DNA of 24,465 nt from a virus. Made by a program: the position numbers and the translations under genes. Where the stretch lies: the IMG/VR virus record IMGVR_UViG_3300030104_005084, positions 1 through 24,465 of that record. One strand, given 5' to 3'. Shown piece by piece: positions 3,971-15,352 of the stretch (position 1 is its first letter; the number at the start of each line of letters is the position of its first letter). Below the pieces are notes generated by a model. That model ran no database searches. It was not told where the DNA came from and was given only the letters and a program-made list of their open reading frames with translations.

Positions 3971-4009
3971 AGTATAATCCTATATTCCGACCCCCGAAGG
4001 GTCGTCCGA

Positions 4010-4037
4010 AGGATACAGTCATAAGTGGGATAGTCAA
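4010..4037 (-). promoter_or_regulatory. Possible sigma70-like promoter for the primase group
   Basis: On the minus strand TTGACT (4037-4032), a 16-bp spacer and TATCCT (4015-4010) precede the gene starting at 3970. The -35 box is inside a 15-bp repeat that recurs at 6835-6849. A hairpin with a GACCC/GGGTC stem (about 3990-4004) lies in the leader. Confidence 0.4.
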
Positions 4038-4046
4038 CACTTAACT
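4032..4046 (-). repeat. 15-bp repeat AGTCAACACTTAACT, copy 1
   Basis: Identical to 6835-6849. On the minus strand it reads AGTTAAGTGTTGACT, with TTGACT usable as a -35 box. It lies 81 bp from the tRNA-like attP core, so it could be an operator or an integrase arm site. A related TTAACAGTT follows at 4071-4079. Confidence 0.6.
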
Positions 4047-4126
4047 GCAATCAACTACTGACTATTTTCATTAACAGTTTTTAACACCTAGATTTCCTAA
4101 CCCATTGATTTTAAACGATAACCAAC

Positions 4127-4167
4127 TAATCAATTGGTCGTAGGTTCGATCCCTACCGTCGGAGCCA
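4127..4167 (+). other. attP: attP core: 3' half of a tRNA gene (tRNA-Asn-like)
   Basis: The 41 bp read as the 3' part of a tRNA: end of the anticodon loop (TAA), stem strand TCAAT, variable bases TGGTC, T-arm GTAGG-TTCGATC-CCTAC, acceptor strand CGTCGGA, discriminator G and CCA. The G discriminator, T36 and the variable region fit tRNA-Asn(GUU). The 5' half is absent: no TCCGACG acceptor strand lies upstream. Phage integrases of the tyrosine type often use such halves to restore the tRNA after insertion, and an integrase gene is 0.9 kb away. Phage genes on both sides mean this is attP, not attL or attR with host DNA. Confidence 0.8.
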
Positions 4168-4217
4168 ACTATCTGATAATAAACGATTATTTAGGTTTTT
4201 ATCTCTAAAAATTGGCA

Positions 4218-4257
4218 CAAAAAAAGGAAATTGGCTTTTGCCAAGATTTGCCAATTT
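4218..4257 (-). terminator. Terminator after the int-thyX operon
   Basis: On the minus strand AAATTGGC (4257-4250) pairs with GCCAATTT (4235-4228), followed by CC and seven T. An alternative inner stem TTGGC/GCCAA shares one arm. T bases on the plus-strand side could make it work in both directions. It starts just past the stop of the 55-aa gene. Confidence 0.8.
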
Positions 4258-4258
4258 T

Positions 4259-4426
4259 TTATTCACCCGACTCATAATTTACTCTATACACAAACTGCAT
4301 TGCTTCTTTTAATGTATTAAAAGAGTGTATTGCACCACCATTTTTACCAACCTGCACTTGCACAGTATCGTTCCACTGATTTTTTGTTACGATGCAATTT
4401 CCGTATTTAACATCTACTTTTTCCAT
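4259..4426 (-). CDS. Hypothetical 55-aa protein downstream of thyX
   Basis: The start is taken at the ATG of a TAATG overlap with the thyX stop (MEKVDVKYGN), with GGGAG upstream; a 10-residue longer reading inside thyX is less likely. The product has a beta-rich look (CIVTKNQW, TVQVQVGKNGGAIHSF) and a helical end (LKEAMQFVYRV). No family is recognised. It is the last gene of int-thyX, immediately before the terminator. Confidence 0.68.
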   Translation of the reverse strand: MEKVDVKYGNCIVTKNQWNDTVQVQVGKNGGAIHSFNTLKEAMQFVYRVNYESGE

Positions 4427-5109
4427 TATTGTAAAGCTCCCTGCAGTGCTTCCCACGAATGTGGGTAGATAGTATTCATATCTACTGCAATGTCTATGGC
4501 GATTCGTCTGGTCTCTGTCTGGGCTTCATCCGACCTTCGCAACTTACACATCTTAGCAAATGCATCGAGACTGCCAGACCAGTAAAACTCTGTAATCATG
4601 TTTTGAGGCAGGATCATACGAGCCTGTTCTTCACATACACCTAGCTTGAGTAGCTGATTATACTTGTAGACTGCATCTTGCGTCTGACTGATTGAAGTAA
4701 GGATTGCCTCATTAGCTCTGTCATCATCTAATCTACCACCGCTGCCCTGTTTCTTGTCATCGACAGCTTCTCGCCACCACTCAGGGAAGAATAATTCTGG
4801 TTCTGATTTCACATACCTGCGCGAGATCTCATTCAGTCGTAAATATTCATGTTTGACCAGTTGCCTAGCTACGAAGATTGGGGCTTTGCAGTAAAAGGTA
4901 GCGAAACAATGCCCGAAGCATGAAAGGTGCTTGTGCGAGGCTAGGTATTTAATTAACTTCTTATCTTTATCTTTTAAGATGGGAACAGATGGACCATTAC
5001 CTGCTTGCGAGTAACCGTGTGGCTCTGACTTCTTATTAAAACTCACCCTCGCAGCATTCACGACTGAGAGGTCACTGCCCATGTGATCTACTAATTTTGC
5101 TGATATCAT
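4426..5109 (-). CDS. thyX: Flavin-dependent thymidylate synthase ThyX
   Basis: It should make dTMP from dUMP with FAD, NADPH and methylene-tetrahydrofolate, supplying nucleotides for phage replication. At 227 aa it has normal length. Visible are ARVSF (20-24), the helical HLSCFGHCFATF part (61-72) and the signature KHE-x7-S ending in NEISRRYV (86-100). The canonical signature is RHR-x7-S, so Arg to Lys and Arg to Glu changes are present, as I recall for other phage ThyX proteins, while the active-site Ser96 and Arg97/Arg98 remain. RQNMITEFYW-type C-terminal contacts are visible around 168-177. The ATG at 5109 has AGGA within the end of the integrase gene, one base after its stop, so the two are co-transcribed. 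Confidence 0.93.
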   Translation of the reverse strand: MISAKLVDHMGSDLSVVNAARVSFNKKSEPHGYSQAGNGPSVPILKDKDKKLIKYLASHKHLSCFGHCFATFYCKAPIFVARQLVKHEYLRLNEISRRYVKSEPELFFPEWWREAVDDKKQGSGGRLDDDRANEAILTSISQTQDAVYKYNQLLKLGVCEEQARMILPQNMITEFYWSGSLDAFAKMCKLRRSDEAQTETRRIAIDIAVDMNTIYPHSWEALQGALQ

Positions 5110-5110
5110 G

Positions 5111-6415
5111 TTAATTCCTAATTTTCTTTAGTTGTTGTTTTAATCTTTGGATTTCGTTCTGTGCATCGAGGAGTGCTTTGTCGGTAACCTGACCAGTTTC
5201 CATCTGTTGTGCGGCTGCTTTCCAACCCACTCTATCTTCCATAACTGGACCGCCATTGTGACCAATACTGGTTAGCAGACCTCTCTTGTTCATTGCGTTG
5301 GTTGCTTCTACTTCGCCTTGTCGTGCATAGATAACGAGCATCGAAGGGTTCTTGTGACCAGTGAGAGCCATCAACTCTCTGTCTGTGCAGCCCGATCTAC
5401 TAGCGTGAGTAGTACCAGTGCGTCTGAGGTCTCCGACCCTTGGGTAGGTAAGTAGTGGCTGTCCTTGTTTATTCTCTCGATCACCATCCTGCACCATCGA
5501 CCACTTCAATGGCTTAACAACTGTCTGTTTAAAGACAACTGATACTCTATCTACAGTGTAAGGCTTCTTTGTAGGCTCTTCTCGCAAGATGATATCATCG
5601 ATATATCTCTCGTCACCTAACAACTCTTGATGCAGTGCTAGTCTATCTTTGATACCCTGCGTAAGAGGTATAGCCATTCTAGTTTTAGTCTTCTTCTGTC
5701 TGAAGTACCCTATTCCAGTTTCTACATCACGCCATCGAAGTCTACGAATATCTACTGGACGCTGACACCAGTGGTAGCAGAGCGTGATCATAGTACCCAT
5801 TGAGTATCTACCCACTGCGTCACACTGTTCTATAGCCTGAGTTACCATATCTTCATCCCAGAGGACGGCTCTGGCTTCCAATATAGGTATTGTTACTAAA
5901 GAAAAAGGATTGATATTAGCTAGACCGCATTTGACACCCTCATTCCAAGCTGCGCGTAACCGCATAAAACAAGTTACTGCTTTGTGAGTACTTACGTCCT
6001 TTTCTATGTCGTTGAATAAGTACTTGGCATGTTCGTATGTAACGTCTGTAGCTTTCATCTCATCGAAGCGTACTGACTCATTTCTCAATTTGAAGCTCAT
6101 GCAGTATTCAATGTGACTAGCGTAACTTCTCATCGTGGAGAGGTCATTATCTCGATACGCAGGACTTGCTTTCCACTCGTCAATTAGGGATCTGACACTG
6201 TATTTATCGTCACAAGTATGTGTATCAGTACCACCTTTTAAGTGTGTATCTAATTTACGCTGCCACGCATAACCTAATGCATTGGCTTCCGTTAAAGTAT
6301 CAAAACGATCTCTTTTAAGGTCTGGAAAATAACGTAGTAATTTAGGCGTAGGCTTCACACCATAACTTCTGCCATTTTTTCTTTTCTCAATTCTTACATA
6401 AGGAGCGATTTTCAT
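5111..6415 (-). CDS. int: Tyrosine recombinase (phage integrase)
   Basis: A 434-aa site-specific recombinase that should insert the phage into the tRNA gene matched by 4127-4167. An arm-binding-like N-terminal part (1-65) and a SAM-like core-binding domain (about 70-170) precede the catalytic domain. Catalytic residues seen are R219 (CQRPVDIRRL), K243 or nearby (KKTKTR), R331 (GDLRRTG, where the usual His of HDLRRT is Gly328), H354 (LTGHK) and Tyr363 (VIYAR). The C-terminus carries IGHNGGP (384-390), a short motif common in alphaproteobacterial phage proteins, and a coiled-coil tail (415-431). The ATG at 6415 lacks a clear ribosome site but lies behind four ACCAAC-type motifs and an inverted repeat. 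Confidence 0.93.
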   Translation of the reverse strand: MKIAPYVRIEKRKNGRSYGVKPTPKLLRYFPDLKRDRFDTLTEANALGYAWQRKLDTHLKGGTDTHTCDDKYSVRSLIDEWKASPAYRDNDLSTMRSYASHIEYCMSFKLRNESVRFDEMKATDVTYEHAKYLFNDIEKDVSTHKAVTCFMRLRAAWNEGVKCGLANINPFSLVTIPILEARAVLWDEDMVTQAIEQCDAVGRYSMGTMITLCYHWCQRPVDIRRLRWRDVETGIGYFRQKKTKTRMAIPLTQGIKDRLALHQELLGDERYIDDIILREEPTKKPYTVDRVSVVFKQTVVKPLKWSMVQDGDRENKQGQPLLTYPRVGDLRRTGTTHASRSGCTDRELMALTGHKNPSMLVIYARQGEVEATNAMNKRGLLTSIGHNGGPVMEDRVGWKAAAQQMETGQVTDKALLDAQNEIQRLKQQLKKIRN

Positions 6416-6416
6416 T

Positions 6417-6477
6417 TGGTTGGTTCTTTCGGTTGGTTACACAGACAAACTGTTAAGAGTTGGTATTAACAGTTGGT
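6417..6477 (-). repeat. Cluster of four ACCAAC motifs in the integrase leader
   Basis: Minus-strand ACCAAC(T/C) copies lie at 6418-6425, 6431-6438, 6458-6464 and 6471-6477, the closest directly before the start codon. The same motif marks the leaders of several other genes in both arms. Confidence 0.5.
6448..6474. promoter_or_regulatory. Perfect 9-bp inverted repeat upstream of int (operator-like)
   Basis: AACTGTTAA, a 9-bp spacer and TTAACAGTT form a dyad 33-59 bp before the integrase start. Single half-sites occur near attP (4071-4079) and in the 13.5-kb intergenic region (13563-13571). It could be a repressor or excisionase site controlling int. Confidence 0.55.
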
Positions 6478-6507
6478 GCTTACAACACCACCGACTATAG
6501 TGTCAAT

Positions 6508-6534
6508 AAAAAAAAAGACCCACCGAAGTGGATC
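6508..6534 (-). terminator. Strong terminator after the 66-aa gene
   Basis: On the minus strand GATCCAC-TTCG-GTGGGTC, a 7-bp stem with one G-T pair and a stable UUCG loop, is followed by nine T. It closes the unit of the 6560-6760 gene and isolates the integrase promoter. Confidence 0.9.
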
Positions 6535-6559
6535 TCTTTAGATTAACCTAGAATAGTGG

Positions 6560-6760
6560 CTACCCTGCAGATACCTTTACTATTTCTTCCCATCCGTCAT
6601 ATTTCTCATCACACCAGTGAAGAGGAACGGCTTCGAAAATTTTAAAATCAACCATATAGACTATTACTAACGCCTTTTTGTCTTTTTTGACTAATTCTAT
6701 AGTATTTTGTATTACTTCGCTTAGTTCTAAGGCTTGTTTGGTGTCTATAATAGTGTCCAA
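6560..6760 (-). CDS. Hypothetical 66-aa protein, first leftward gene
   Basis: Not recognised. The start is TTG at 6760 (reading MDTIIDTKQALELSEV); an ATG at 6782 is in another frame. The chain has a helical first half and a beta-like second half (KALVIVYMVDFKIFEAVPLHWCDEKYDGW). It is a single-gene unit next to the divergent regulatory and origin region, a place where phages often keep regulators, but no helix-turn-helix is apparent. Confidence 0.6.
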   Translation of the reverse strand: MDTIIDTKQALELSEVIQNTIELVKKDKKALVIVYMVDFKIFEAVPLHWCDEKYDGWEEIVKVSAG

Positions 6761-6834
6761 AACCTGCTGTACCTTTCTCCATTAGTTTAAAACTTTACAA
6801 TTAATCTTGCAGTTTTGACCTAATTTTTTCATTA

Positions 6835-6849
6835 AGTCAACACTTAACT
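6835..6849 (-). repeat. 15-bp repeat AGTCAACACTTAACT, copy 2
   Basis: Exact copy of 4032-4046, in the same orientation and again upstream of a leftward gene (66-aa gene). The minus strand offers TTGACT as a -35 box, but no convincing -10 box follows at 16-18 bp. Confidence 0.6.
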
Positions 6850-6850
6850 C

Positions 6851-7030
6851 TAGGCTTGCGCGAGCGCGAGTATATAAGATTAATTTATCCACAGAGTTAT
6901 CTACAATAGATAATGTGATATTTTCTTATAAAATTAGTAAGATAATAAATTTTTAAAATCAAAAATAAAAAAATAAAAAATTTTAAATCAAAAAAAAAAT
7001 TAAAGGCTGATCAAAAAATAAATTTGATTT
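6851..7030. other. Candidate replication origin with DnaA-box-like sites
   Basis: TTATCCACA (6885-6893, the consensus DnaA box) and TTATCTACA (6897-6905) stand in the same direction, followed by about 115 bp made almost only of A and T (about 6915-7030), suited for strand opening. Just before them a short GC-rich dyad CTTGCGC-GA-GCGCGAG lies at 6855-6870. The whole 346-bp region 6761-7106 has no gene, separates leftward from rightward transcription and probably also holds the early promoters. Confidence 0.55.
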
Positions 7031-7106
7031 AGGCAGATGATTAGTGTATTGGAAGGTATGCCACTTAATAAGGTGGCTAGGTAACCAACTAATAGGAAAT
7101 AACCAA

Positions 7107-7316
7107 ATGACTATGATTGCAGTCTATCCAACCAAAAAATCTCTGAAAGAGAATATTGGTAAAAAGCTTGCTTATATAGAGACAAGCTTATTCGGTAATG
7201 AATACAAAAGCAACGGTTCGTTCGTTGTATGTAACAGACCGCACATGACCAACATCGGTCGTGAATGGTTTGCACAAGTCACGATTAAAAACGACATCAT
7301 AGTAGGTGTCAAATAA
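7107..7316 (+). CDS. Hypothetical 69-aa protein, first rightward gene
   Basis: The start is taken at ATG 7107 (MTMIAVYPTKKSLKENIGKKL), with AGGA 9 nt upstream, rather than the GTG at 7044. The protein is basic and compact, with SLFGNEYKSNGSF, NRPH and a beta-rich end (EWFAQVTIKNDIIVGV). I have a weak memory of similar short proteins on phages and plasmids of Proteobacteria but can give no function. An ACCAACT motif lies in the leader. Confidence 0.75.
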   Translation: MTMIAVYPTKKSLKENIGKKLAYIETSLFGNEYKSNGSFVVCNRPHMTNIGREWFAQVTIKNDIIVGVK

Positions 7317-7332
7317 GGTGGCTTGTAATTTT

Positions 7333-7390
7333 GATAAAGCCATTCAGTGTTTTGATCGTCTGGCTTTATCTACTGACCCTTTTCGAGGGT
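7333..7390 (+). repeat. Two consecutive RNA hairpins before the DUF932 gene
   Basis: GATAAAGCCA (7333-7342) pairs perfectly with TGGCTTTATC (7361-7370) across an 18-nt loop. A second hairpin, ACCCT-TTTCG-AGGGT, is at 7376-7390. Neither has a T tract, so they are not ordinary terminators; they could protect or control the mRNA of the gene at 7436. Confidence 0.55.
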
Positions 7391-7435
7391 TAACCAACTT
7401 TAATTTTAACCAACTAAAAAAAGAAAGGGCATAAT

Positions 7436-8293
7436 ATGCCATTAGATTTTACTTCAATTAACCGCCAAATCGAACTTCCACAACATTTGGATTTTAAGCC
7501 AGTGTTCGAGCCATCACGAATGTCAGGACACAATTTCGTGGTTAATCCAATATCAGGGGAAGCTATCGGTCACGTTAGCACCAAGTTTAACTGTGTAGAC
7601 CACCAGACATTTTTCAGTGGTCTCTGGGATCAGATAACTGAGAATATGGACAGTGACGATATCTTGAACGCTCAGGTCAGATTTAAGTCGGGGCATCGAG
7701 GTGGTTTTGCACTGGCAGACATTACATTCCCATCTATTAAAACTTTGATCGAGACAGATAGCGGTCATAAGACTGAGCTTAGGCAGAGGATTATTGGTAT
7801 TCACGGTGTCAATGGTTCTGCATCTAACATTACCCTGTTTGGATCAATAGATACCTTTTGCACTAACGGTTGTGTAAGTGGTGAATATTCAGTGGTTCGA
7901 AGAAAAAATACTTCTGGGTTTAATTTACCTGATTTTATTTCAGAATTACGCAGAGCTAAGAATGACTTCTATATGGAAAGTGAACGGCTCAAAGTATTTG
8001 CTCAGACAAATTTACGAGAGACCACTGTCCAAAAGTTACTTGAGGACATTATTCCCAGTGAGCAAAAGCAGAAAAAGATGTACGACCTGTATATGGAAGA
8101 GGCATATGTAAGAGGGCATAATAAGTTTGCTCTTATGTCAGCTTTTACCAATTACGCCTCTCACACTATGGGTAATGGCTTTGAGCCTAAAAATACTGCA
8201 GCTAGGGCAGAGCATGAAACATCTAATATGTTTAAGCGTGAATTAGAGGTCAATAAGTGGATGTCTGATGACCGCTTTTTATTGGCGGCTTAA
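7436..8293 (+). CDS. DUF932 family protein
   Basis: A 285-aa protein whose layout fits DUF932 (phage/plasmid-like) proteins. The N-terminal half is beta-rich with HVSTKFNCVDHQTFF (46-60) and FALADITFP, the central GVNGSASNITLFGS is followed by FCTNGCVSG (141-149), which corresponds to the (V/F)CxNG box of the family, and the C-terminal half is helical (from about 165). The biochemical role of the family is unsettled; members are common on plasmids and phages near replication or anti-restriction genes. AAAGGG precedes the ATG, and two ACCAACT motifs are in the leader. It opens a long, tightly spaced early operon. Confidence 0.75.
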   Translation: MPLDFTSINRQIELPQHLDFKPVFEPSRMSGHNFVVNPISGEAIGHVSTKFNCVDHQTFFSGLWDQITENMDSDDILNAQVRFKSGHRGGFALADITFPSIKTLIETDSGHKTELRQRIIGIHGVNGSASNITLFGSIDTFCTNGCVSGEYSVVRRKNTSGFNLPDFISELRRAKNDFYMESERLKVFAQTNLRETTVQKLLEDIIPSEQKQKKMYDLYMEEAYVRGHNKFALMSAFTNYASHTMGNGFEPKNTAARAEHETSNMFKRELEVNKWMSDDRFLLAA

Positions 8294-8295
8294 TC

Positions 8296-8532
8296 ATGCA
8301 GCGTCTTAAAGCTATCCAAATAATGTCAGGACATTACTTATGTAAGAATTTTCCTGACAATTGGCATAAGTGGTCGGATCGTAAGCTCGAAAAGTTTATG
8401 AAAGACAACGTATGGCAACCTTTTGAATATTGGTCTACTGACGATGTTTTCTCAGTAATCCAAAGCGCAGCAATAGAACTCTGCCATCAGATTAAAGAGG
8501 ACAGAAAGCTTCGGGAGAAATCCGATGCATGA
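8296..8532 (+). CDS. Hypothetical 78-aa protein
   Basis: Not recognised. It starts two bases after the DUF932 stop, so translation is probably coupled; there is no strong ribosome site. The protein has several Trp (WHKW, WQPFEYW), a helical charged C-terminus (KEDRKLREK) and two isolated Cys. It overlaps the next, 36-aa membrane gene by 8 bp. Confidence 0.7.
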   Translation: MQRLKAIQIMSGHYLCKNFPDNWHKWSDRKLEKFMKDNVWQPFEYWSTDDVFSVIQSAAIELCHQIKEDRKLREKSDA

Positions 8533-8635
8533 GGAACGTATTCTTCAATTTTTAGCAGACATAATCAGGGCGGTAATAATCGCCCTGTTAACTATTTTTT
8601 TAACCTACTGGTTTATTCAAACCGTAACCAACTGA
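8525..8635 (+). CDS. 36-aa single-span membrane protein
   Basis: A very short gene starting at ATG 8525 with GGGAG 7 nt upstream and overlapping the previous gene by 8 bp. The product starts MHEERILQFLADIIRA and continues with a hydrophobic helix of about 18 residues (VIIALLTIFLTYWF), then IQTVTN. The clear ribosome site and the operon spacing argue for a real gene. It may act at the host membrane; no family is recognised. Confidence 0.6.
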   Translation: MHEERILQFLADIIRAVIIALLTIFLTYWFIQTVTN

Positions 8636-8645
8636 AAGGAAAACC

Positions 8646-8984
8646 ATGTCAGATTTAATGACAAAAGAGCGAGTAAAAACATCTCGCAGAATTAAAGCCC
8701 TCAAAAAAAGAGAGCATAAAATCCGCAGACAAAATGCGATTACTCTTGATAGATTAATCAAAATGGAAGCTGCAACCCATGACCGAAAAATACCCTGCGA
8801 TGTTCTGGAATTTGCAGATAAGCTTCGATGGTCTAATTCTAAACAGGGTTGGCAGCGAATAGGTGATCTCACCCTGCCCCATCTAATTCGGGCAGTGCTT
8901 AAAGATTTACCGCCACACAGTAAACCTAATTGGGTCGATTATTCAGAGTTGGATATTACCCAGAATTTTGAGGCGTCAGTATGA
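8646..8984 (+). CDS. Hypothetical basic 112-aa protein
   Basis: Not recognised. Residues 7-45 are a strongly basic helix (KERVKTSRRIKALKKREHKIRR), suited to binding nucleic acid, followed by a mixed domain with KLRWSNSKQGWQRIGDL. The ribosome site is AAAGGA and the ATG is at 8646. An ACCAACT motif lies just upstream (8627-8633). It ends in an ATGA overlap with the next gene. Confidence 0.75.
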   Translation: MSDLMTKERVKTSRRIKALKKREHKIRRQNAITLDRLIKMEAATHDRKIPCDVLEFADKLRWSNSKQGWQRIGDLTLPHLIRAVLKDLPPHSKPNWVDYSELDITQNFEASV

Positions 8985-9175
8985 CACTATCAGAAACCAT
9001 CTCAATTGTTTGGCATGTTGATGACGTTTTAGAACAAGCTAAACAAAGAAATATTAAAATTAGCAGAGATCAGGCTACTCATTTGTTGCATCGTATGGAT
9101 GCGAAGCATGATGCTACCATTGGTATCAATTGGGAAGTGATAGACTGTTACTTAGATATGCATAAGGAACTGTAA
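8981..9175 (+). CDS. Hypothetical 64-aa helical protein
   Basis: Coupled to the previous gene by a 4-bp ATGA overlap and preceded by GAGG. The sequence WHVDDVLEQAK, RDQATHLLHRMDAKHDATIGINWEVID resembles a small helical protein often seen in Proteobacteria and their phages (two helices, a D-A-x-x-GINW box), whose function I do not know. Confidence 0.75.
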   Translation: MTLSETISIVWHVDDVLEQAKQRNIKISRDQATHLLHRMDAKHDATIGINWEVIDCYLDMHKEL

Positions 9176-9176
9176 T

Positions 9177-9704
9177 ATGAAATTATCAGTAAAAGAATTT
9201 TTCGATATTCTAGATGTCGATAGTGAAAATGTCGGGGAGATTACTCTGACAAAAACCATGCTCGATAAATGCATTATTGATGCTAATCTATCAGTGGTTA
9301 AGTTCGCGGAAAGCTTAGGCGAGATAGAGACACGTTATATGCAGCCATTAGGATATGACCACGTTAAACAGGTTAAAAAATGGGAAGAGGTAACTGTCAA
9401 TTTTTTAGAGGGTATTCACTACAGCCTTATTGGAAATGGTCACAGAGTAATGATCGAGGGCAAGCATCTCATTACAACGGATGAGGATGTCTGCGAGACA
9501 GTAACAGTTCGATCTAACAAGTGGACTGAGGATAACTGCAGGATCGTATTCTACAAAACCGCGCGAGGTGATAAACGCATCTCAATATCAGGTCTCAGAA
9601 AGTATGCTCAGGTAGGCGATAAAGTAGCCTTGACCTTCGGGAGTAATGGCTGTCTGATTATTAATATCAGTAGAACATTCGGAGGTGCGTCTAATGCAAT
9701 ATGA
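9177..9704 (+). CDS. Hypothetical 175-aa protein
   Basis: Not recognised. The N-terminal half is helical and acidic (MKLSVKEFFDILDVD); the C-terminal half is beta-rich with repeated short strands (VTVRSNKW, CRIVFYKTARGDKRISISGLRKYAQVGDKVALTF), perhaps a small barrel. It begins two bases after the previous stop with AAGGA upstream and overlaps the next gene by 11 bp. Confidence 0.75.
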   Translation: MKLSVKEFFDILDVDSENVGEITLTKTMLDKCIIDANLSVVKFAESLGEIETRYMQPLGYDHVKQVKKWEEVTVNFLEGIHYSLIGNGHRVMIEGKHLITTDEDVCETVTVRSNKWTEDNCRIVFYKTARGDKRISISGLRKYAQVGDKVALTFGSNGCLIINISRTFGGASNAI

Positions 9705-10041
9705 AATCGAAGAGAATGACGAATATACACCGCCTAAATTTTTGGTTGTGGATGAATATGGGGAATGTATGGAAAACGAAAAAGGTGAGAGCCTTTTCGA
9801 TACCAGAGAATATGCCCAGAGTGTTATTAACAATTTAGAAATGAATGCTAAAGAAATTGAAGTGGATTTTCTTTTAAGTGATTTAAGTATTGCTTTTACT
9901 TTTACTGTTCACATTAACGAGGTGGGAATTGATCCAAGTAATAGCAAGGAAGAAATAGAAAAAGCGATTTATGCATTCTTTAGGCATACACCTATCGATA
10001 TCGAGGAATATAGATTTGTAGGTTCGTCTAATGGCAGATGA
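9694..10041 (+). CDS. Hypothetical acidic 115-aa protein
   Basis: The ATG at 9694 is chosen because GGAGG stands 8 nt upstream; a GTG nine bases earlier is less likely. The product is acidic (EIEENDEYTPP, EEIEKAIYAFF) without recognised motifs. It overlaps both neighbours by about 11 bp, so it is part of the same operon. Confidence 0.73.
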   Translation: MQYEIEENDEYTPPKFLVVDEYGECMENEKGESLFDTREYAQSVINNLEMNAKEIEVDFLLSDLSIAFTFTVHINEVGIDPSNSKEEIEKAIYAFFRHTPIDIEEYRFVGSSNGR

Positions 10042-10210
10042 TCGAGTTTGTATGCACTATGTAGTAGATCGAGTAGAGGACATTTTAGATGCCCCTGCAG
10101 ATGACATCGGTTGTTATCACGATCAGATGGTTGAAGCCTTAGATAAATTCAAACGAGAATTGATTTACAATTTAGGTGCTAATCAGAGAATTTTTCATAA
10201 AGAAAATTAG
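10031..10210 (+). CDS. Hypothetical 59-aa protein at the end of the first early operon
   Basis: It starts MADDRVCMHYVVDRVEDILD and ends with a TAG at 10208-10210, 16 bp before a terminator. Residues 35-45 (MVEALDKFKREL) look helical. The 11-bp overlap with the previous gene and a TAGG...GTCTAATG context very like that of the previous gene support it. No family is recognised. Confidence 0.62.
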   Translation: MADDRVCMHYVVDRVEDILDAPADDIGCYHDQMVEALDKFKRELIYNLGANQRIFHKEN

Positions 10211-10226
10211 ATCCAAAACATAAACT

Positions 10227-10257
10227 AAAAAGGGGCGGCTTCGGTTGCCCTTTTTTT
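10227..10257 (+). terminator. Terminator of the 7107-10210 early block
   Basis: GGGCGGC-TTCG-GTTGCCC (two G-T pairs, UUCG loop) is followed by seven T, with A-rich sequence before it. Confidence 0.88.
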
Positions 10258-10446
10258 ATGTAGGTAGGTTAACGCCTTTTTATGATTAATAGTGAGCAAA
10301 ATAGCTAAACGCACTCAGTGGGCTTTATATCGCCTCTTCGAGGCATCTCCCCACAATTAAGAAAGTGTTTGCATAAACAATTAAATTAATGCTAATTATT
10401 GGGTTACAGGCAGTGTGCCTGACAACCAACTTTGAGAGGTAACCAA
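10258..10446 (+). promoter_or_regulatory. Leader region of the second early operon
   Basis: No gene is seen. It holds GCACTCAGTGG (10310-10320, repeated at 13332-13342), a GCCTC-TTC-GAGGC hairpin, an AT-rich stretch likely to include a promoter (TTGCAT at 10369, no clear -10), a perfect CAGGCA-GTG-TGCCTG dyad (10407-10421), ACCAACT, and then the ribosome site GAGAGG. Confidence 0.45.
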
Positions 10447-10890
10447 ATGACTAACGAAACCAAAACAACCGCAGAGATTATTAGCACCAAATTACCTACG
10501 GAAGATATTTCAAATATTTACATCGGGGAGTGGGCTTATGAATACCGCAATCCCGAAGCCTGTGAACCTTCAGATAATATTGCGACAAGCTACAATGTGA
10601 CCGCTGTAGATTACAAAGGCAGAACATGGGTGCATCATTTTAAACTATCCACTGAGAACCACCATCAAGAGGAATGCAAAGAACGCCTCGCAAAATTAAT
10701 AGGACGTATTCATGCTCACCTAGCATTAGGTGGTTCAATTGATCTGGAGCATTGGGGGCAAGGTCATCCTGCTTATGGTTCTGAAGCTTGGCAGGAATTC
10801 GAGAGAGAGGAAATCCAACCTGCCGCAGAAATGTTGAGCAGAGGTGGGCATTTTGAAGATTTGCCAGACAGTGTCAGGGGGTACTTCTAA
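10447..10890 (+). CDS. Hypothetical 147-aa protein
   Basis: Start ATG 10447, behind GAGAGGT and AACCAA; an upstream TTG at 10432 is rejected. The chain begins polar, then shows NVTAVDYKGRTWVHHFKL and a His-rich centre (ENHHQEEC, GRIHAHLALGG), and ends GYF. No known domain is recognised. A TAATG overlap joins it to the next gene. Confidence 0.75.
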   Translation: MTNETKTTAEIISTKLPTEDISNIYIGEWAYEYRNPEACEPSDNIATSYNVTAVDYKGRTWVHHFKLSTENHHQEECKERLAKLIGRIHAHLALGGSIDLEHWGQGHPAYGSEAWQEFEREEIQPAAEMLSRGGHFEDLPDSVRGYF

Positions 10891-11138
10891 TGGGTAGGAA
10901 GGTATCCCGTAAATTACAGCGCAGATGTTATGTCTGCGCTAAAAATTTTCGATCAGTCGAGAGGCTTTATGACGAACATGAAACCAAGACATTTCATTTC
11001 TTTAAATACGGTGGCTTCTGCACTTTAGCATGTGCCGCAGAATATGGCATCCGAAGTCTGGATGCAGGTCATTGTTTTGATCACGATGGTAATTTGCTTA
11101 CTCCCGATGCACTGAAAAATTTAAATCAAAAAAGTTAA
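10890..11138 (+). CDS. Small zinc-finger-like protein, 82 aa
   Basis: Basic N-terminus (MGRKVSRKLQRR), then CYVC and, about 28 residues on, FCTLAC, giving a C-x2-C...C-x3-C set that could bind zinc in a treble-clef or FCS-like fold. The end (DHDGNLLTPDALKNL) is polar. DNA, RNA or protein binding is plausible but unproven. It is translated through a TAATG overlap with the previous gene. Confidence 0.72.
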   Translation: MGRKVSRKLQRRCYVCAKNFRSVERLYDEHETKTFHFFKYGGFCTLACAAEYGIRSLDAGHCFDHDGNLLTPDALKNLNQKS

Positions 11139-11144
11139 TTCGAA

Positions 11145-11160
11145 ACAGCCTTCGGGCTGT
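11145..11160 (+). repeat. Hairpin ACAGCC-TTCG-GGCTGT
   Basis: A perfect 6-bp stem with a UUCG loop 7 nt after a stop codon, but without a T tract. It may stabilise the 3' end of the upstream message or act as a weak, factor-dependent terminator. Confidence 0.5.
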
Positions 11161-11220
11161 CTGTATACCTTGGGCAAGATGCACTGATGAGAACGCCCCC
11201 AACTAGAGAGGACACTAACC

Positions 11221-11433
11221 ATGTCAATTGTAGAAATTTTTAAGCAAGTAGAATTACGCAAAGTTAAGCAAGGCGATCTGTTCAAAAGAAAGCCATATGC
11301 AAAATCATATTTTGTAAGAAACCACTACAACCCAAAAGACTTTTTCGGTGCTGCTAATTTTACCTGCACAAATTGGGATAATGGCAATGAGGTATTCTTG
11401 AAACCATCAACACTAGTATTTGTGGAGGTTTAA
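11221..11433 (+). CDS. Hypothetical 70-aa protein
   Basis: The ATG at 11221 has AGAGAGGAC upstream. Sequence features are LRKVKQGDLFKRKPYAKSYFVRNHY and CTNWDNGNEVFLKPSTLVFVEV, a beta-rich small fold similar to short phage proteins I have seen without assigned function. It is two bases before the DUF2786-type gene. Confidence 0.72.
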   Translation: MSIVEIFKQVELRKVKQGDLFKRKPYAKSYFVRNHYNPKDFFGAANFTCTNWDNGNEVFLKPSTLVFVEV

Positions 11434-11435
11434 AG

Positions 11436-12173
11436 ATGTCAGTAGATCGAAAAGAAATCTTAAAAAAACTGAAAGCATTTTCAGAACGCACAGTAGAAAA
11501 TGGTTGTACTGAGGCTGAGGCTATGGCTGCAGCTAGGGCAATGCAATCCCTACAGGATAAATACAACCTGACATTAACTGAGCTAGACATCGAGCTAACC
11601 GAATACGTTAACGAGAGGATGAGCCTCGGCAAAAAAGTAAGGCATCCAGTTTGGGGAGCATTACACGGCTTGATGATGTTTTGTGAGGTTCGCATTGTCG
11701 GAAAAACTGGTGGCATCGCAATTGTAGGTCAACAGCATAAAGTTGATAATGCGGTCTATCTAATCAGTACCTTGATGTCGGCAATGGAATTAGAATTCCT
11801 CAATTATAAAAATACTTGGGAGTATGACGAAGAGGTCAATTATAATGGAATGCATCCCAGAAGGGTTCGATCAAATTTTATGAATTCGATGGCTAGACGC
11901 CTCAGCTATCGGCTTTATGACATGTTCAAAGAGAGCCGTAAAAATTCTCAGGTGATGGCTAATAAATCAGCCAGTGGCACTGCACTGGTTGTACTGGCAG
12001 ATAATGCACTCGATGCAGAATACCGCAGACAATTCCCCAGAACGCGGTCTGCAGCGTCCAGATCAATCGGTGGCGGTTCTGCATCGGAAGCAGGAAGGGC
12101 TGCAGCTAATAGAGTAGGTCTGAACAAAGGTGTCAGATCTGGTGGTTCAATTTCTGGATACATCGGGAGATAA
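11436..12173 (+). CDS. DUF2786-type protein, 245 aa
   Basis: Residues 6-46 (EILKKLKAFSERTVENGCTEAEAMAAARAMQ, split into helices, then KYNLT) match the DUF2786 pattern: KI-x-ALL, AEA, A-x-x-L(M/Q)-x-KY. The middle (65-165) corresponds to the domain usually following it, with a HPVWGALHGLM helix and RRVRSNFMNSMARRL. The C-terminus is rich in Ala, Gly, Ser and Arg (residues 200-245) and probably disordered. Function of the family is not known; it is frequent in phages. The ATG follows GGAGGTTTAAAG. Confidence 0.78.
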   Translation: MSVDRKEILKKLKAFSERTVENGCTEAEAMAAARAMQSLQDKYNLTLTELDIELTEYVNERMSLGKKVRHPVWGALHGLMMFCEVRIVGKTGGIAIVGQQHKVDNAVYLISTLMSAMELEFLNYKNTWEYDEEVNYNGMHPRRVRSNFMNSMARRLSYRLYDMFKESRKNSQVMANKSASGTALVVLADNALDAEYRRQFPRTRSAASRSIGGGSASEAGRAAANRVGLNKGVRSGGSISGYIGR

Positions 12174-12177
12174 TGAA

Positions 12178-12363
12178 ATGGATTTCAACAGTATATTATC
12201 TCAGCTATTCGATCAGTCTGGTGAGCTAAGTTTTAGCTCATTGGATATCAGACAATTTCAGGCTCAATCTAATCAGATGCACCCTGTATCCTATGATTTG
12301 TGGAGGGCTGATCTTTTGATTGCCCAGGCGATCTCAGGTGAAGACTTTGGGGGGGATTTATAA
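12178..12363 (+). CDS. Hypothetical 61-aa protein
   Basis: Start ATG 12178 with GGGAG 8 nt upstream; the longer reading from 12130 lies inside the preceding gene. It begins MDFNSILSQLFDQSGELSF, is acidic and ends GGDL. Unknown family. TAATG overlap with the next gene. Confidence 0.65.
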   Translation: MDFNSILSQLFDQSGELSFSSLDIRQFQAQSNQMHPVSYDLWRADLLIAQAISGEDFGGDL

Positions 12364-12722
12364 TGGGCTATGTAAGTAGTGAGGAAGGCATGAGATTTAC
12401 CCGCCTATGGTGCGGAACTAAATCAGCCTACCATCGAGCAGGAGCAGGTAAATCAGTTTTAATCAAATTGCGTTGGTTAACGGATGATGAAAAAAGCATT
12501 ATCGCTTATTGGGATTTCTACGGACAAACTGCAGAAATAGCTGAGGCAAAATGCGATCAGAAGCTGCACGACATTTCACTGGTTTGTGAGGGCTACACCC
12601 TGCATAAATATTTCCTTTTAGACGGATCGTCTGGAAAAATATCTTCGGACACTTGGAAATATGCAGGAACGTCATGCTGCAGCATCTGCAGACCTGAGAA
12701 AGAGGGGGCTGACAATGGTTGA
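12363..12722 (+). CDS. Hypothetical 119-aa protein with C-terminal Cys cluster
   Basis: Not recognised. The body is mixed alpha/beta (FTRLWCGTKSAYHRAGAGK, IIAYWDFYGQTAEIAEAKC), with CEGYTLHKYF and a C-terminal SCCSICRPEKEG that could bind metal with the upstream Cys. TAATG start coupling and GGGGGGG upstream. It overlaps the next gene by 8 bp. Confidence 0.7.
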   Translation: MGYVSSEEGMRFTRLWCGTKSAYHRAGAGKSVLIKLRWLTDDEKSIIAYWDFYGQTAEIAEAKCDQKLHDISLVCEGYTLHKYFLLDGSSGKISSDTWKYAGTSCCSICRPEKEGADNG

Positions 12723-12999
12723 TTATGCGTATTCCAATTTAGCTTTTAACTTTGGCTGTGAAATCTCGAAGATGCAGTACGTCATGGCTGAGGCTAACAG
12801 TATTGAGCTTCTAGACTGCTTCGGTTCTGTTAATCGCTTGATCGTTACCCTCAGTAAAATTTCCAATCCAAATAGCGAAGTAATGAAAGAGCTTGACCAT
12901 TATTACACTAAGCGAAATTGCTTGCACATCGAGCTTACCAACCGACTGCACTATCGCGATGCATCGAGGGCTGAAAATCTGATCGAGAGGGTGAGCTAA
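12715..12999 (+). CDS. Hypothetical 94-aa helical protein
   Basis: Start ATG 12715 preceded by GAGGGGG at 6 nt; a longer reading from 12661 is unlikely. Mostly helical (MAEANSIELLDCFGSVNRLIVTL, MKELDHYYTKRN). No family known. It ends with a TAATG overlap into the next gene. Confidence 0.68.
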   Translation: MVDYAYSNLAFNFGCEISKMQYVMAEANSIELLDCFGSVNRLIVTLSKISNPNSEVMKELDHYYTKRNCLHIELTNRLHYRDASRAENLIERVS

Positions 13000-13184
13000 T
13001 GAAACGCATAGCAGTAGCCTTTGATGAATGCGGAACGGAGATCTTTATTGAGATGGGTAAATCTGAAACCCTCGACACATTGAGGGAGAGACATCCAGAG
13101 TGCAGCTTCCGATATATCAAGACTGAAAGCATCGATTACTGGTACGATAGGAACACTGGCGATCAGGACGATTACGGCTACTAG
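12999..13184 (+). CDS. Hypothetical 61-aa protein, last early gene
   Basis: It starts MKRIAVAFDECGTEIFIEMG and has a tyrosine- and aspartate-rich end (YWYDRNTGDQDDYGY). GAGAGGG precedes it. No family is recognised. It closes the second early operon 20 bp before a terminator. Confidence 0.68.
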   Translation: MKRIAVAFDECGTEIFIEMGKSETLDTLRERHPECSFRYIKTESIDYWYDRNTGDQDDYGY

Positions 13185-13205
13185 TACTTAGATAAACAAC
13201 TAAAG

Positions 13206-13232
13206 AACCCTGCTTTTTAGTGGGGTTTTTTT
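13206..13232 (+). terminator. Terminator of the second early operon
   Basis: AACCCTGC pairs with GTGGGGTT (8 bp including two G-T pairs, 6-nt loop), and T extend to 13232. Confidence 0.85.
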
Positions 13233-13891
13233 ATGTCCTACGGCTCGATCAGAATAGTATCTGAGAGGCGCGGAGAGAGTCACTGATAAGCCAAACTGTT
13301 CTCAGGTATATTTATATCCAAAAGATTTACCTGCACTCAGTGGCTCTTACATTGGCTCTGGTGACATCTAGTTAAGTGCTGGGTTTGGGAGAAAATTGCA
13401 AATAGGTATACAATCTCGCGCTTCTATCCGATTAAAAATATCCGTCAATTGTAGAAAATTTTCTTAATTAGATAGCTAAGGAATAATTTCCTGCAGCTTA
13501 GATTAATTAACTGATTTATTTTTTTCTAATTGATTGCTCGATGCTGCATTTTTCTAGGCATCAACTGTTAATGTCAGGTTATTAGTTTAAGGATCGAGCC
13601 AGTTACTGTGTTGATTTTGTTACTATTTATCTGCCTAATTTTTTTTCTTTAAAAATTTTTCCAGAGGGGGCGAGTGCCACCCCCCTACCCCCACGTTACC
13701 GTATACAACCCAGACATATTTTGGGAAAATGGCAACCGTAAACAGCCATTAGCGTATTTCTACTAGAAATATTCTGTAAAGCTTCTATATATTAGGTGTT
13801 AAGCTTGACATGTTACAAGATGTTGGGTACTATCATAGAAAAATACAGGTAACCAGTTATTTCGATAGAGCAACTTATCGGAGCAACTAAT
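13233..13891. promoter_or_regulatory. 660-bp non-coding region between early and late genes
   Basis: No ORF worth calling on either strand. It contains GCACTCAGTGG (13332-13342, repeated from 10310), AGTTAAGTG (13370-13378) and AACTGTTAA (13563-13571) as copies of motifs seen near attP and int, a nested stem around AGGAA-TAAT-TTCCT (13482-13495) within CTAAG...CTTAG, AT-rich stretches, a run of G and C tracts (about 13664-13691), and the late promoter at 13805-13833. An untranslated RNA cannot be excluded. Confidence 0.5.
13805..13833 (+). promoter_or_regulatory. Near-consensus sigma70 promoter for late genes
   Basis: TTGACA (13805-13810), a 17-bp spacer and TACTAT (13828-13833) lie 58 bp before the first late gene. 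GTTAAG (13798-13803) sits one base before the -35 box, an arrangement like that of the 15-bp repeat (GTTAAG-TG-TTGACT). Host RNA polymerase should read it. Confidence 0.72.
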
Positions 13892-14221
13892 TTGAATGAT
13901 AACGGACAGGACGTTACTTTAGAAGTTCCCCTCTTTATCGATAATGATTTATTCGAAGACGATGACGGTGAATTTATACTGCAGACCAGTGTATCACCAG
14001 ACCTAGACGAGAAGCCAGTTATAAAAGAGCAGCCGTTTGAGGAAGTCATTAACTTAATAATCGAGTTTCACGAAGAAGACGGAGACTACCACGAGTTATA
14101 CAAGGTAAGCAACGGCTTACTACATCAATCTGAAAGGATACGAGAAGTAGCAGACAAGCTTGAGTCCAGTACTCATGCGGTAGCTGACTTATTCAATACT
14201 TCTTATGAGCCACCAACCTAA
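13892..14221 (+). CDS. Hypothetical acidic 109-aa protein, first late gene
   Basis: The start is TTG at 13892 with CGGAG 7 nt upstream; no in-frame ATG is near. The product is strongly acidic (DNDLFEDDDGEF, EFHEEDGDYHE) and helical towards the end (SERIREVADKLESSTHAVADLF). An acidic DNA mimic or scaffold-like role is conceivable but unsupported. It overlaps the Endo VII gene by 17 bp. Confidence 0.68.
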   Translation: MNDNGQDVTLEVPLFIDNDLFEDDDGEFILQTSVSPDLDEKPVIKEQPFEEVINLIIEFHEEDGDYHELYKVSNGLLHQSERIREVADKLESSTHAVADLFNTSYEPPT

Positions 14222-14591
14222 TCTATTTGGGTGGTTAGAAGATACTCTTCCAGACGATGCGATTGAATGCAGACACTGCAAGCAAGTAAAACCTAGAGAA
14301 GCATTTAGGTTATATCGCAGGGCAACTGGAGATCGGGAATGTAGGAGTACTTCCTGTAAGGAATGTCAGAAGCGTAATCTCAGGATAGTGAATGAGATAC
14401 GAAAGACTGCCCCACCCAAGCCAGATCAGTGTCAGTGCTGCGGCAAAGAAGACAATAAACTTGTCCTCGACCACTGCTACGAGACAGAGACATTCAGAGG
14501 GTGGATTTGTTCTCACTGCAATCTCTCAATCGGCTTGTTGGGAGACAACATACAAGGAATAAAAAGAGCTATTAAATATCTAAAGTCATAG
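14205..14591 (+). CDS. Endonuclease VII-like HNH nuclease
   Basis: A 128-aa recombination-endonuclease-type protein. The core is C76-x2-C79, the catalytic DH pair (D89-H90) in KLVLDHC, RGWIC, C102-x2-C105 and the CNLSIGLLGDN end (N106, D114, N115), the Endo VII signature. It should cleave branched DNA, clearing junctions before packaging, as T4 gp49 does. The N-terminal part adds an extra Cys set (C22-x2-C25, C46, C51-x2-C54) that may be a second zinc site. Its position ahead of the terminase genes fits a packaging-linked role. Confidence 0.88.
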   Translation: MSHQPNLFGWLEDTLPDDAIECRHCKQVKPREAFRLYRRATGDRECRSTSCKECQKRNLRIVNEIRKTAPPKPDQCQCCGKEDNKLVLDHCYETETFRGWICSHCNLSIGLLGDNIQGIKRAIKYLKS

Positions 14592-14632
14592 CGGTTATGC
14601 AGGTTATGACTCTACTGAGCAAACTCTCCAAA

Positions 14633-14641
14633 TGTTATAAT
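14633..14641 (+). promoter_or_regulatory. Extended -10 promoter before the DUF1127 gene
   Basis: TGT followed by TATAAT gives a perfect -10 with the TG extension; a -35 box is poor. It lies 25 bp before the DUF1127 ATG, so the gene may be expressed on its own. Confidence 0.55.
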
Positions 14642-14666
14642 GTACTACAGTATATAGGAGACAGTA

Positions 14667-14819
14667 ATGCTTAGGAAAATATTCAATAAAATTACAGATA
14701 TGCAAAGAAGACGTACTGCTTATTGGCAGTTACAGAATTTAACAGACCAACAACTACACGACATTGGCGTTAGTCGAAGTGAGATATACAGGGCGGCATA
14801 CAAAGATCCTATTAGATGA
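14667..14819 (+). CDS. DUF1127 (YjiS-like) small protein
   Basis: A 50-aa protein with the full DUF1127 pattern: a basic N-terminal helix (MQRRRTAYW), then LQNLTDQQLHDIGVSRSEI, matching L-x-x-L-x-D-x-x-L-x-DIG(L/V)-x-R. Such proteins are abundant in Alpha- and Gammaproteobacteria. In alphaproteobacteria some bind RNA and influence small-RNA turnover and stress or phosphate responses (established for the family in general, not for this one). AGGAG is at good spacing. It has its own promoter and couples by ATGA overlap to a 38-aa membrane peptide. A phage copy may have been taken from a host to alter RNA metabolism; that is an inference. Confidence 0.85.
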   Translation: MLRKIFNKITDMQRRRTAYWQLQNLTDQQLHDIGVSRSEIYRAAYKDPIR

Positions 14820-14932
14820 AGCTAGTAGCCTATCTACTTATCTTACTATTAATTACGGATTGGGGAAATGGAGTCAGAGGGCTAAGAGTAGTCTTCTATA
14901 AAGACATCTACTCCCATACTAGGGTGACTTAG
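14816..14932 (+). CDS. 38-aa peptide with N-terminal hydrophobic segment
   Basis: Overlaps the DUF1127 stop by ATGA. The product starts MKLVAYLLILLLITDW, a signal-peptide or membrane-anchor profile, then a short basic tail (RGLRVVFYKD). Unknown family. The coupling suggests a DUF1127 partner or a small secreted peptide. Confidence 0.5.
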   Translation: MKLVAYLLILLLITDWGNGVRGLRVVFYKDIYSHTRVT

Positions 14933-15013
14933 AGGTATCTATATATAGAAGCCCTCTCAACTACACTCTCATTGTACCATTAAAACCGATTTTCGTCAAT
15001 CATAACGTGTCGT

Positions 15014-15028
15014 AACTAACACTTAATT
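15014..15028 (-). repeat. Diverged copy of the CACTTAA repeat
   Basis: AACTAACACTTAATT agrees with AGTCAACACTTAACT at 11 of 15 positions and ends 6 bp before the -35 box of the promoter at 15035. Confidence 0.35.
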
Positions 15029-15071: not shown

Positions 15072-15095
15072 TAGGCATCCAAGTAGGAGTGCCTA
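15072..15095 (+). promoter_or_regulatory. Hairpin presenting the ribosome site in its loop
   Basis: TAGGCA (15072-15077) pairs perfectly with TGCCTA (15090-15095). The loop contains the ribosome site AGGAG (15085-15089), and the stem reaches the A of the start codon. The structure begins only about 2-4 nt after the expected transcription start, so it may tune translation or protect the 5' end. Confidence 0.55.
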
Positions 15096-15352
15096 TGAAA
15101 AGCCTTAACTTATATTACATCAGAGCCGCAATCGAAGCGAAAACAGGGCAGAGGCTAGATTTTCCCACAATAAGGCGGTTGCTTGTAGAAGAAGGGCTGA
15201 TCACCCAACGAGAGTTAGATGCCAATCCTATGGCACATAAATTTAGAGGATACGGAGCCTATTTCTTTACTGAAGAGAACTCTGTGGACATACCCCCCGA
15301 ACCAGAAAGATTTTTACCCACCTACTACATCGAGGAAGAGTTTGATGAATAA
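15095..15352 (+). CDS. Hypothetical 85-aa protein
   Basis: Start ATG 15095 with AGGAG 5 nt upstream; the GTG six bases earlier overlaps that site. The N-terminal part is helical (YYIRAAIEAKTGQRLDFPTIRRLLVEEGL), followed by RELDANPMAHKFRGYGAYF and an acidic end (EEEFDE). No family is recognised. It overlaps the next gene by 8 bp. Confidence 0.72.
   Translation: MKSLNLYYIRAAIEAKTGQRLDFPTIRRLLVEEGLITQRELDANPMAHKFRGYGAYFFTEENSVDIPPEPERFLPTYYIEEEFDE

Follow-up and report, generated by a model that had tools for sequence, protein, structure and literature searches.

A 24-bp inverted repeat at control points of a temperate marine Roseobacter phage as the putative operator of a phage-encoded regulator

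An inverted repeat of 24 bp, TTARGTGY-N8-RCACYTAA, recurs at about seven control points of a temperate, marine Roseobacter virus, and we consider it rather likely, judging from the DNA, that this dyad is the operator of one phage-encoded dimeric regulator. The window analyzed, a whole virus record of 24.5 kb, belongs to an HMO-2011-type phage of subgroup III; its closest terminase matches are the Roseobacter phages CRP-738 (80% identity), CRP-235, CRP-212, and CRP-3. The HMO-2011 type is one of the most abundant phage groups in the sea, and some of its members integrate (PMC6918029). In the window, the integrase gene, thyX, and the primase and helicase genes follow one another in leftward reading, and early genes are followed by late genes in rightward reading. 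A defined operator would serve as bait for finding the regulator and as a predictor of the genes under its control, and it makes the question of lysogeny testable in slow-growing hosts.

RESULTS

Discovery and statistics of the dyad

Two scans with integrase profiles yielded about 130 usable integrase loci of HMO-2011-type subgroup III, corresponding to 72 representatives at 90% identity. The near-clade relatives compared with the window are L003 to L006, and the subgroup I genomes used for comparison are those of HMO-2011, CRP-1, and CRP-603, two of which infect Roseobacter strains; non-coding masks were derived from open reading frames. In the P arm of attP, 33 of 68 representatives contain the word GTCAACA (0.8 expected), and there is likewise a strong over-representation of CACYTA. 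At late promoters, 7 of 19 de-duplicated sequences have CACYTA at 5 to 16 bp upstream of TTGAC, compared with 0.03 in shuffles. Lining up the words from the P arm and the late promoters gives the dyad, whose half-sites are 16 bp apart from center to center.

The spacing is fixed. With up to three mismatches, a spacer of 8 bp returns 75 non-coding and 36 coding matches, whereas any other spacer from 0 to 20 returns at most 38 non-coding ones; after de-duplication, the non-coding matches number 38 at spacer 8 and 4 to 16 at the others. Permuted half-sites give a de-duplicated mean of 6.9, the top permutation (26) being nearly the same word as the real half-site. Non-coding DNA, unlike coding DNA, has raised numbers of both the N8 inverted pair and the back-to-back arrangement in a 24-bp register. 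The dyad was first spotted by eye in the same data in which it was later counted; the matrix test described below runs across clades. Within the near clade, variation in the half-site columns is only a little below that of the flanks (21% versus 26%).

A symmetric matrix was built from 14 sites of other clades and applied to the window and to L003 to L006. Ranks 1 to 6 in the window are all intergenic control sites (4021, 7069, 15003, 13792, 2393, and 10361, in this order), rank 7 is a coding match, and rank 8 is the integrase-promoter site at 6472; every one of the seven best matches in L004 is a control site. None of 300 column-permuted matrices put six of its top seven matches in non-coding DNA (mean, 1.2). 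Positions 250 to 790 are masked as non-coding although the polymerase gene apparently begins there, and the test is slightly conservative for this reason. Among the isolates, CRP-212 has six dyads compared with 1.3 for control spacers, five intergenic by annotation and one overlapping the end of the polymerase gene, and CRP-3 has two with one mismatch. The nearest isolate, CRP-738, has one dyad, not above control spacers; no dyad was found in the genome ends of CRP-235, and no excess in the three subgroup I genomes.

Dyad sites in the window

The seven sites (S1 to S7) are given without strand, and the promoters mentioned are predicted from sequence. The leftmost, S1 (TTATATGG-N8-CCACCTAA, 2393 to 2416; matrix rank 5, score 10.7), is upstream of the helicase gene, and its counterpart in L004 is TTATATGT-N8-ACACCTAA. 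The best-scoring site is S2 (ATAAGTGG-GATAGTCA-ACACTTAA, 4021 to 4044; rank 1, 19.2), which encloses the predicted early-left −35 box TTGACT and lies within the P arm of attP. It reads ATAAGTGT-N8-ACACTTAA in L004 and L006, and the P-arm element is found family-wide. Nearby, at 3990 to 4004, where the early-left transcript likely starts, there is a small hairpin (GACCC-CCGAA-GGGTC), which is kept in relatives with other paired letters (GCCCC..GGGAC, GGGGCC..GGCCCC).

Upstream of the integrase gene, S3 (6453 to 6495) consists of two overlapping dyads, TTAAGAGT-N8-ACAGTTGG at 6453 and GTTGGTGC-N8-CCACCGAC at 6472 (rank 8, 9.1). S3 is degenerate in the window and better in L004 to L006; the L005 version, TTAGGTGC-N8-CCACCTAC, scores 21.8. 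The integrase dyad lies downstream of a TTGACA box. S4 (TAAGGTGG-N8-CCAACTAA, 7069 to 7092; rank 2, 16.6), kept in L003 to L006, immediately precedes the first early-right gene (ATG at 7107), between its likely start site and the ATG. The neighboring region from 6850 to 7030 may be a replication origin: it has a GC-rich imperfect palindrome, about 100 bp of nearly pure A/T, and a clade-conserved DnaA box (TTATCCACA at 6885), and DnaA-like boxes are present there in CRP-3 and CRP-212 too.

S5 (GAAAGTGT-N8-ACAATTAA, 10361 to 10384; rank 6, 9.6) stands upstream of ORF 10447-10890 and, as at S2, has a predicted −35 hexamer inside the dyad; in L004, it is joined back to back by a second dyad. Together with 2393 and 6472, 10361 is among the degenerate dyads of the window. 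At the late promoter, S6 (TTAGGTGT-TAAGCTTG-ACATGTTA, 13792 to 13815; rank 4, 10.7) reads TTAGGTGT-N8-ACACCTTA in L003, and the −35 box, TTGACA at 13805, overlaps the right part of the dyad in the window clade. At S2, S5, and S6, the predicted −35 box is within the dyad or abuts it. In CRP-3 and CRP-212, the late half-site is just upstream of the −35 box. Upstream of the late promoter, the long stretch from 13660 to 13780, with a GC-rich repeat, GTATACAACC, and ATTTTGGGAAAATGGCAACCGTAAA, is conserved even in distant relatives; Rfam gave no match anywhere in the window, this segment included. The rightmost site, S7 (TAACGTGT-CGTAACTA-ACACTTAA, 15003 to 15026; rank 3, 14.2), is upstream of the promoter of ORF 15095 and reads TTACGTGT-N8-ACACTTAA in relatives.

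Relation to the motif first described

The initial annotation had described a recurrent element composed of GTTAAG and CACTTAAC, and its coordinates are correct: AGTCAACACTTAACT at 4032 to 4046 and 6835 to 6849, AGTTAAGTG at 13370, AACACTTAA at 15018, and GTTAAG at 13798. However, neither word recurs beyond chance, with 15 copies of GTTAAG against 15.5 expected in shuffles and 19 of CACTTAAC, one mismatch allowed, against 21.7. The 15-mer AGTCAACACTTAACT with up to three mismatches is found three times (1.1 expected), a number reached by 11 of 100 shuffles, and a collection-wide scan for it returned 46 scattered contigs, just one of them a close relative.

Comparison with relatives separated these places. 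Both places of the 15-mer read AGTCAACAC[C/T]TAACT in relatives, with T as the first base at 4032 in L004 and L006. Five genomes agree in 14 of 15 columns at 6835, compared with 40 to 53% in the flanks, and seven genomes agree in 13 of 15 at 4032. The 15-mer at 4032 and 6835 is a genuine island of conservation among relatives. The 15014 copy is also kept, its flanks being likewise conserved. The copy at 13370 is not conserved (it reads GTTAATGG in L004 and L006) and was dropped as an element, and the GTTAAG letters at 13798 are replaced by GTTGGC or GTTATG in relatives, the adjoining TTAGGTGTT at the late promoter being invariant. Three of the five places (4032, 13798, and 15014) fall inside dyads (S2, S6, and S7); the one at 6835 to 6849 is a conserved half-site AGTCAACACTTAACT, also given without strand, which adjoins TTGAC, has no full dyad, and reaches a matrix score of only 5.8.

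The motif had also been placed flush against a −35 box, which holds at 4032 (TTGACT-N16-TATCCT); at 6835, there is no conserved −10 box. The sites at 2393, 6472, 7069, and 10361 were missed. The comparison gives good support to a phage-wide operator at early-left, early-right, and late control points, but with the 24-bp inverted repeat, not GTTAAG, as its element. The CtrA box, TTAA-N7-TTAA at promoters, does not describe it either: the pattern has one occurrence, at 2697, outside the sites.

Anatomy of attP

The attP core is the 3′ end of a tRNA-Asn(GTT) gene identified by ARAGORN at 4127 to 4168 on the plus strand, and it is present exactly in more than 118 bacterial genome stretches, nearly all from Rhodobacteraceae. 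With its core at a tRNA gene end and the integrase gene near, it is an attP of the tRNA-targeted tyrosine-integrase kind; the integration target of CRP-3 is tRNA-Met (PMC6918029). The P arm carries an IHF consensus site (TAACCCATTGATT, 4098 to 4110, plus strand), and 30 of 68 representatives have YAANNNNTTGATW near −40 from the core.

In the P′ arm, a word is present four times between 4210 and 4258 (TTGGC, TTGGC, GCCAA, and GCCAA, entered without strand as a group) at positions that are fixed in the tRNA-Asn relatives, about 44, 64, 72, and 81 from the core end. These words are probably arm-type sites of the integrase, and they could also form terminator hairpins. The two direct and two inverted copies are identical fourfold within each phage, and the word varies between near-identical phages (TTGGC, TGGAA, GGGAT, GTGGC, and CTGCA in L003 to L006 and other tRNA-Asn relatives). 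The integrases of L004 and L006 differ by 0.9% after residue 63 and by 33% before it, and their words differ as well (GGGAT and CTGCA), as expected of arm-type sites. This looks like a switching of the arm-site specificity of the integrase; a family-wide correlation between integrase N-terminus and arm words was not supported (partial r of −0.23).

Candidates for the regulator gene

The best candidate is an 85-aa open reading frame at 15095 to 15352 on the plus strand, picked out by co-occurrence and by dyad S7 before its own promoter. It was found in 35 subgroup III loci and is absent from the three subgroup I genomes; among phage records, it occurs only in CRP-738, CRP-235, CRP-212, and CRP-3, four subgroup III isolates. 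Its predicted fold is a few helices, with no PDB sequence match, no Foldseek match at E 0.001, and a VIA-align Z of at most 3.4.

The 175-aa product of 9177 to 9704 is predicted to form a B3-like DNA-binding pseudobarrel (LEC2, VAL1, ARF1, BfiI, and EcoRII N-domain; Z of 5 to 8), and its homologue sits upstream of int in CRP-738 and other relatives. We rejected this protein as the regulator: its family did not turn up in CRP-3 or CRP-212, whose dyads are good, and it does occur in CRP-1, where dyads are not in excess. No protein with a recognized DNA-binding domain was linked to the dyad sites. A 50-aa protein encoded at 14667 to 14819 is conserved in subgroup III and by eye resembles host DUF1127 proteins.

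DISCUSSION

The arrangement of the dyads relative to the predicted promoters at early-left, S5, late, integrase, and early-right suits a repressor. The late half-site upstream of the −35 box in CRP-3 and CRP-212, together with S7 upstream of its promoter, would suit activation too, and we therefore favor a dimeric repressor or dual regulator encoded by the phage. Such a protein would most likely bind the dyad as a dimer, cooperatively where dyads are back to back. At the early-left, integrase, 10361, and late promoters, it would keep RNA polymerase out by occupying the −35 box or the promoter spacer; at the early-right gene, it would obstruct the polymerase from a position between the likely start site and the ATG. 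A single regulator of this kind would set the timing of early and late transcription or maintain lysogeny. Since the P arm of attP contains the early-left promoter, this protein would also be loaded next to the site of recombination.

Three other explanations were weighed. The dyad might be bound by an Apl/Cox-like recombination directionality factor, a protein that serves excision at attP and regulates early promoters. Half-sites are dense in the P arm at a fixed distance from the core, 10- to 15-mers are common to the P arm and the int-upstream region in many relatives (the k-mer sharing is significant in just part of them), and the phage 186 protein Apl binds pR-pL as well as attP (PMC7498355). 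However, Apl and similar factors use direct repeats 10 to 11 bp apart (PMC7498355), whereas the repeats here are inverted and 16 bp apart, and dyads are also found at the late and helicase promoters, far from attP. We regard this explanation as unlikely. The suggestion that a host transcription factor uses the dyad, the phage having copied host operators into its own promoters, is quite unlikely in our judgment. No phage regulator is proven and the dyads are at sigma-70-like promoters, as this suggestion would have it, but there is no spacer-8 excess in 0.9 Mb of host DNA (mostly Rhodobacteraceae contigs with the attB tRNA, pieces near one gene) and none in the subgroup I phages, even in the two that infect Roseobacter strains.

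A reading of the 15-mer at 4032 and 6835 as no more than an integrase arm-type site or the −35 region of a promoter, with the other places due to chance, is very unlikely. TTGAC is indeed contained in the 15-mer, a −10 box is properly spaced at 4032, and the counts of GTTAAG and CACTTAAC match shuffled expectation. Against this stand the spacer-specific enrichment, the cross-clade matrix ranks, and the late-promoter statistic, and the 15-mer is unlikely to be an arm site because the P′-arm words change between near relatives and the 15-mer does not. Beyond the preferred reading, in which one dimeric phage regulator acts at the dyads, we raise a more speculative proposal to which we give a low but appreciable chance: a new family of small regulators, of the ORF15095 type and without a known fold match, may control lysis-lysogeny in integrase-bearing HMO-2011-type phages, with promoters and attP coupled via the dyad. 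If this were true, transcription and recombination would be coupled through one inverted-repeat site.

Two studies of HMO-2011-type phages, PMC6918029 and PMC9038755, name no repressor or operator; the word "repressor" is absent from the former and "promoter" from the latter, and a wider full-text literature search found neither a repressor nor an operator. The kind of system is known, but the dyad operator itself appears to be undescribed in the literature searched. The operator of the PadR family reportedly reads ATGT-N8-ACAT, and the spacing of the inner TGT-N8-ACA coincides with that of the dyad; however, the outer half-site differs, and no PadR-like protein was found within the window.

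Cox of phage P2 is of the same kind as Apl of phage 186 and has sites at attP and at early promoters, a double placement that is also found here. However, the sites of Apl are 6-bp direct repeats spaced 10 to 11 bp (PMC7498355), about one helix turn, and the spacer-specific signal here is carried by inverted repeats at 16 bp. The operators and stoperators of mycobacteriophage L5 are asymmetric 13-mers, bound by a monomer, present more than 20 times per genome, and oriented with transcription (PMC9283540). Both phages are temperate and carry one motif at many promoters and intergenic places, but the signal here, a 24-bp dyad, is symmetric and recurs at about seven places within 24 kb, and it is not an L5-type stoperator. 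In lambda-type OL/OR systems, palindromic operators lie over the early promoters. The present dyad is longer with an 8-bp gap, it is found at helicase, integrase, and late sites too, and no CI-like protein was recognized. It shares with OL/OR the palindromes over early promoters, which are predicted ones here, the back-to-back 24-bp register in some relatives is near the lambda operator spacing, and a fixed-spacing inverted repeat at several promoters is the arrangement of a palindromic multi-operator phage repressor.
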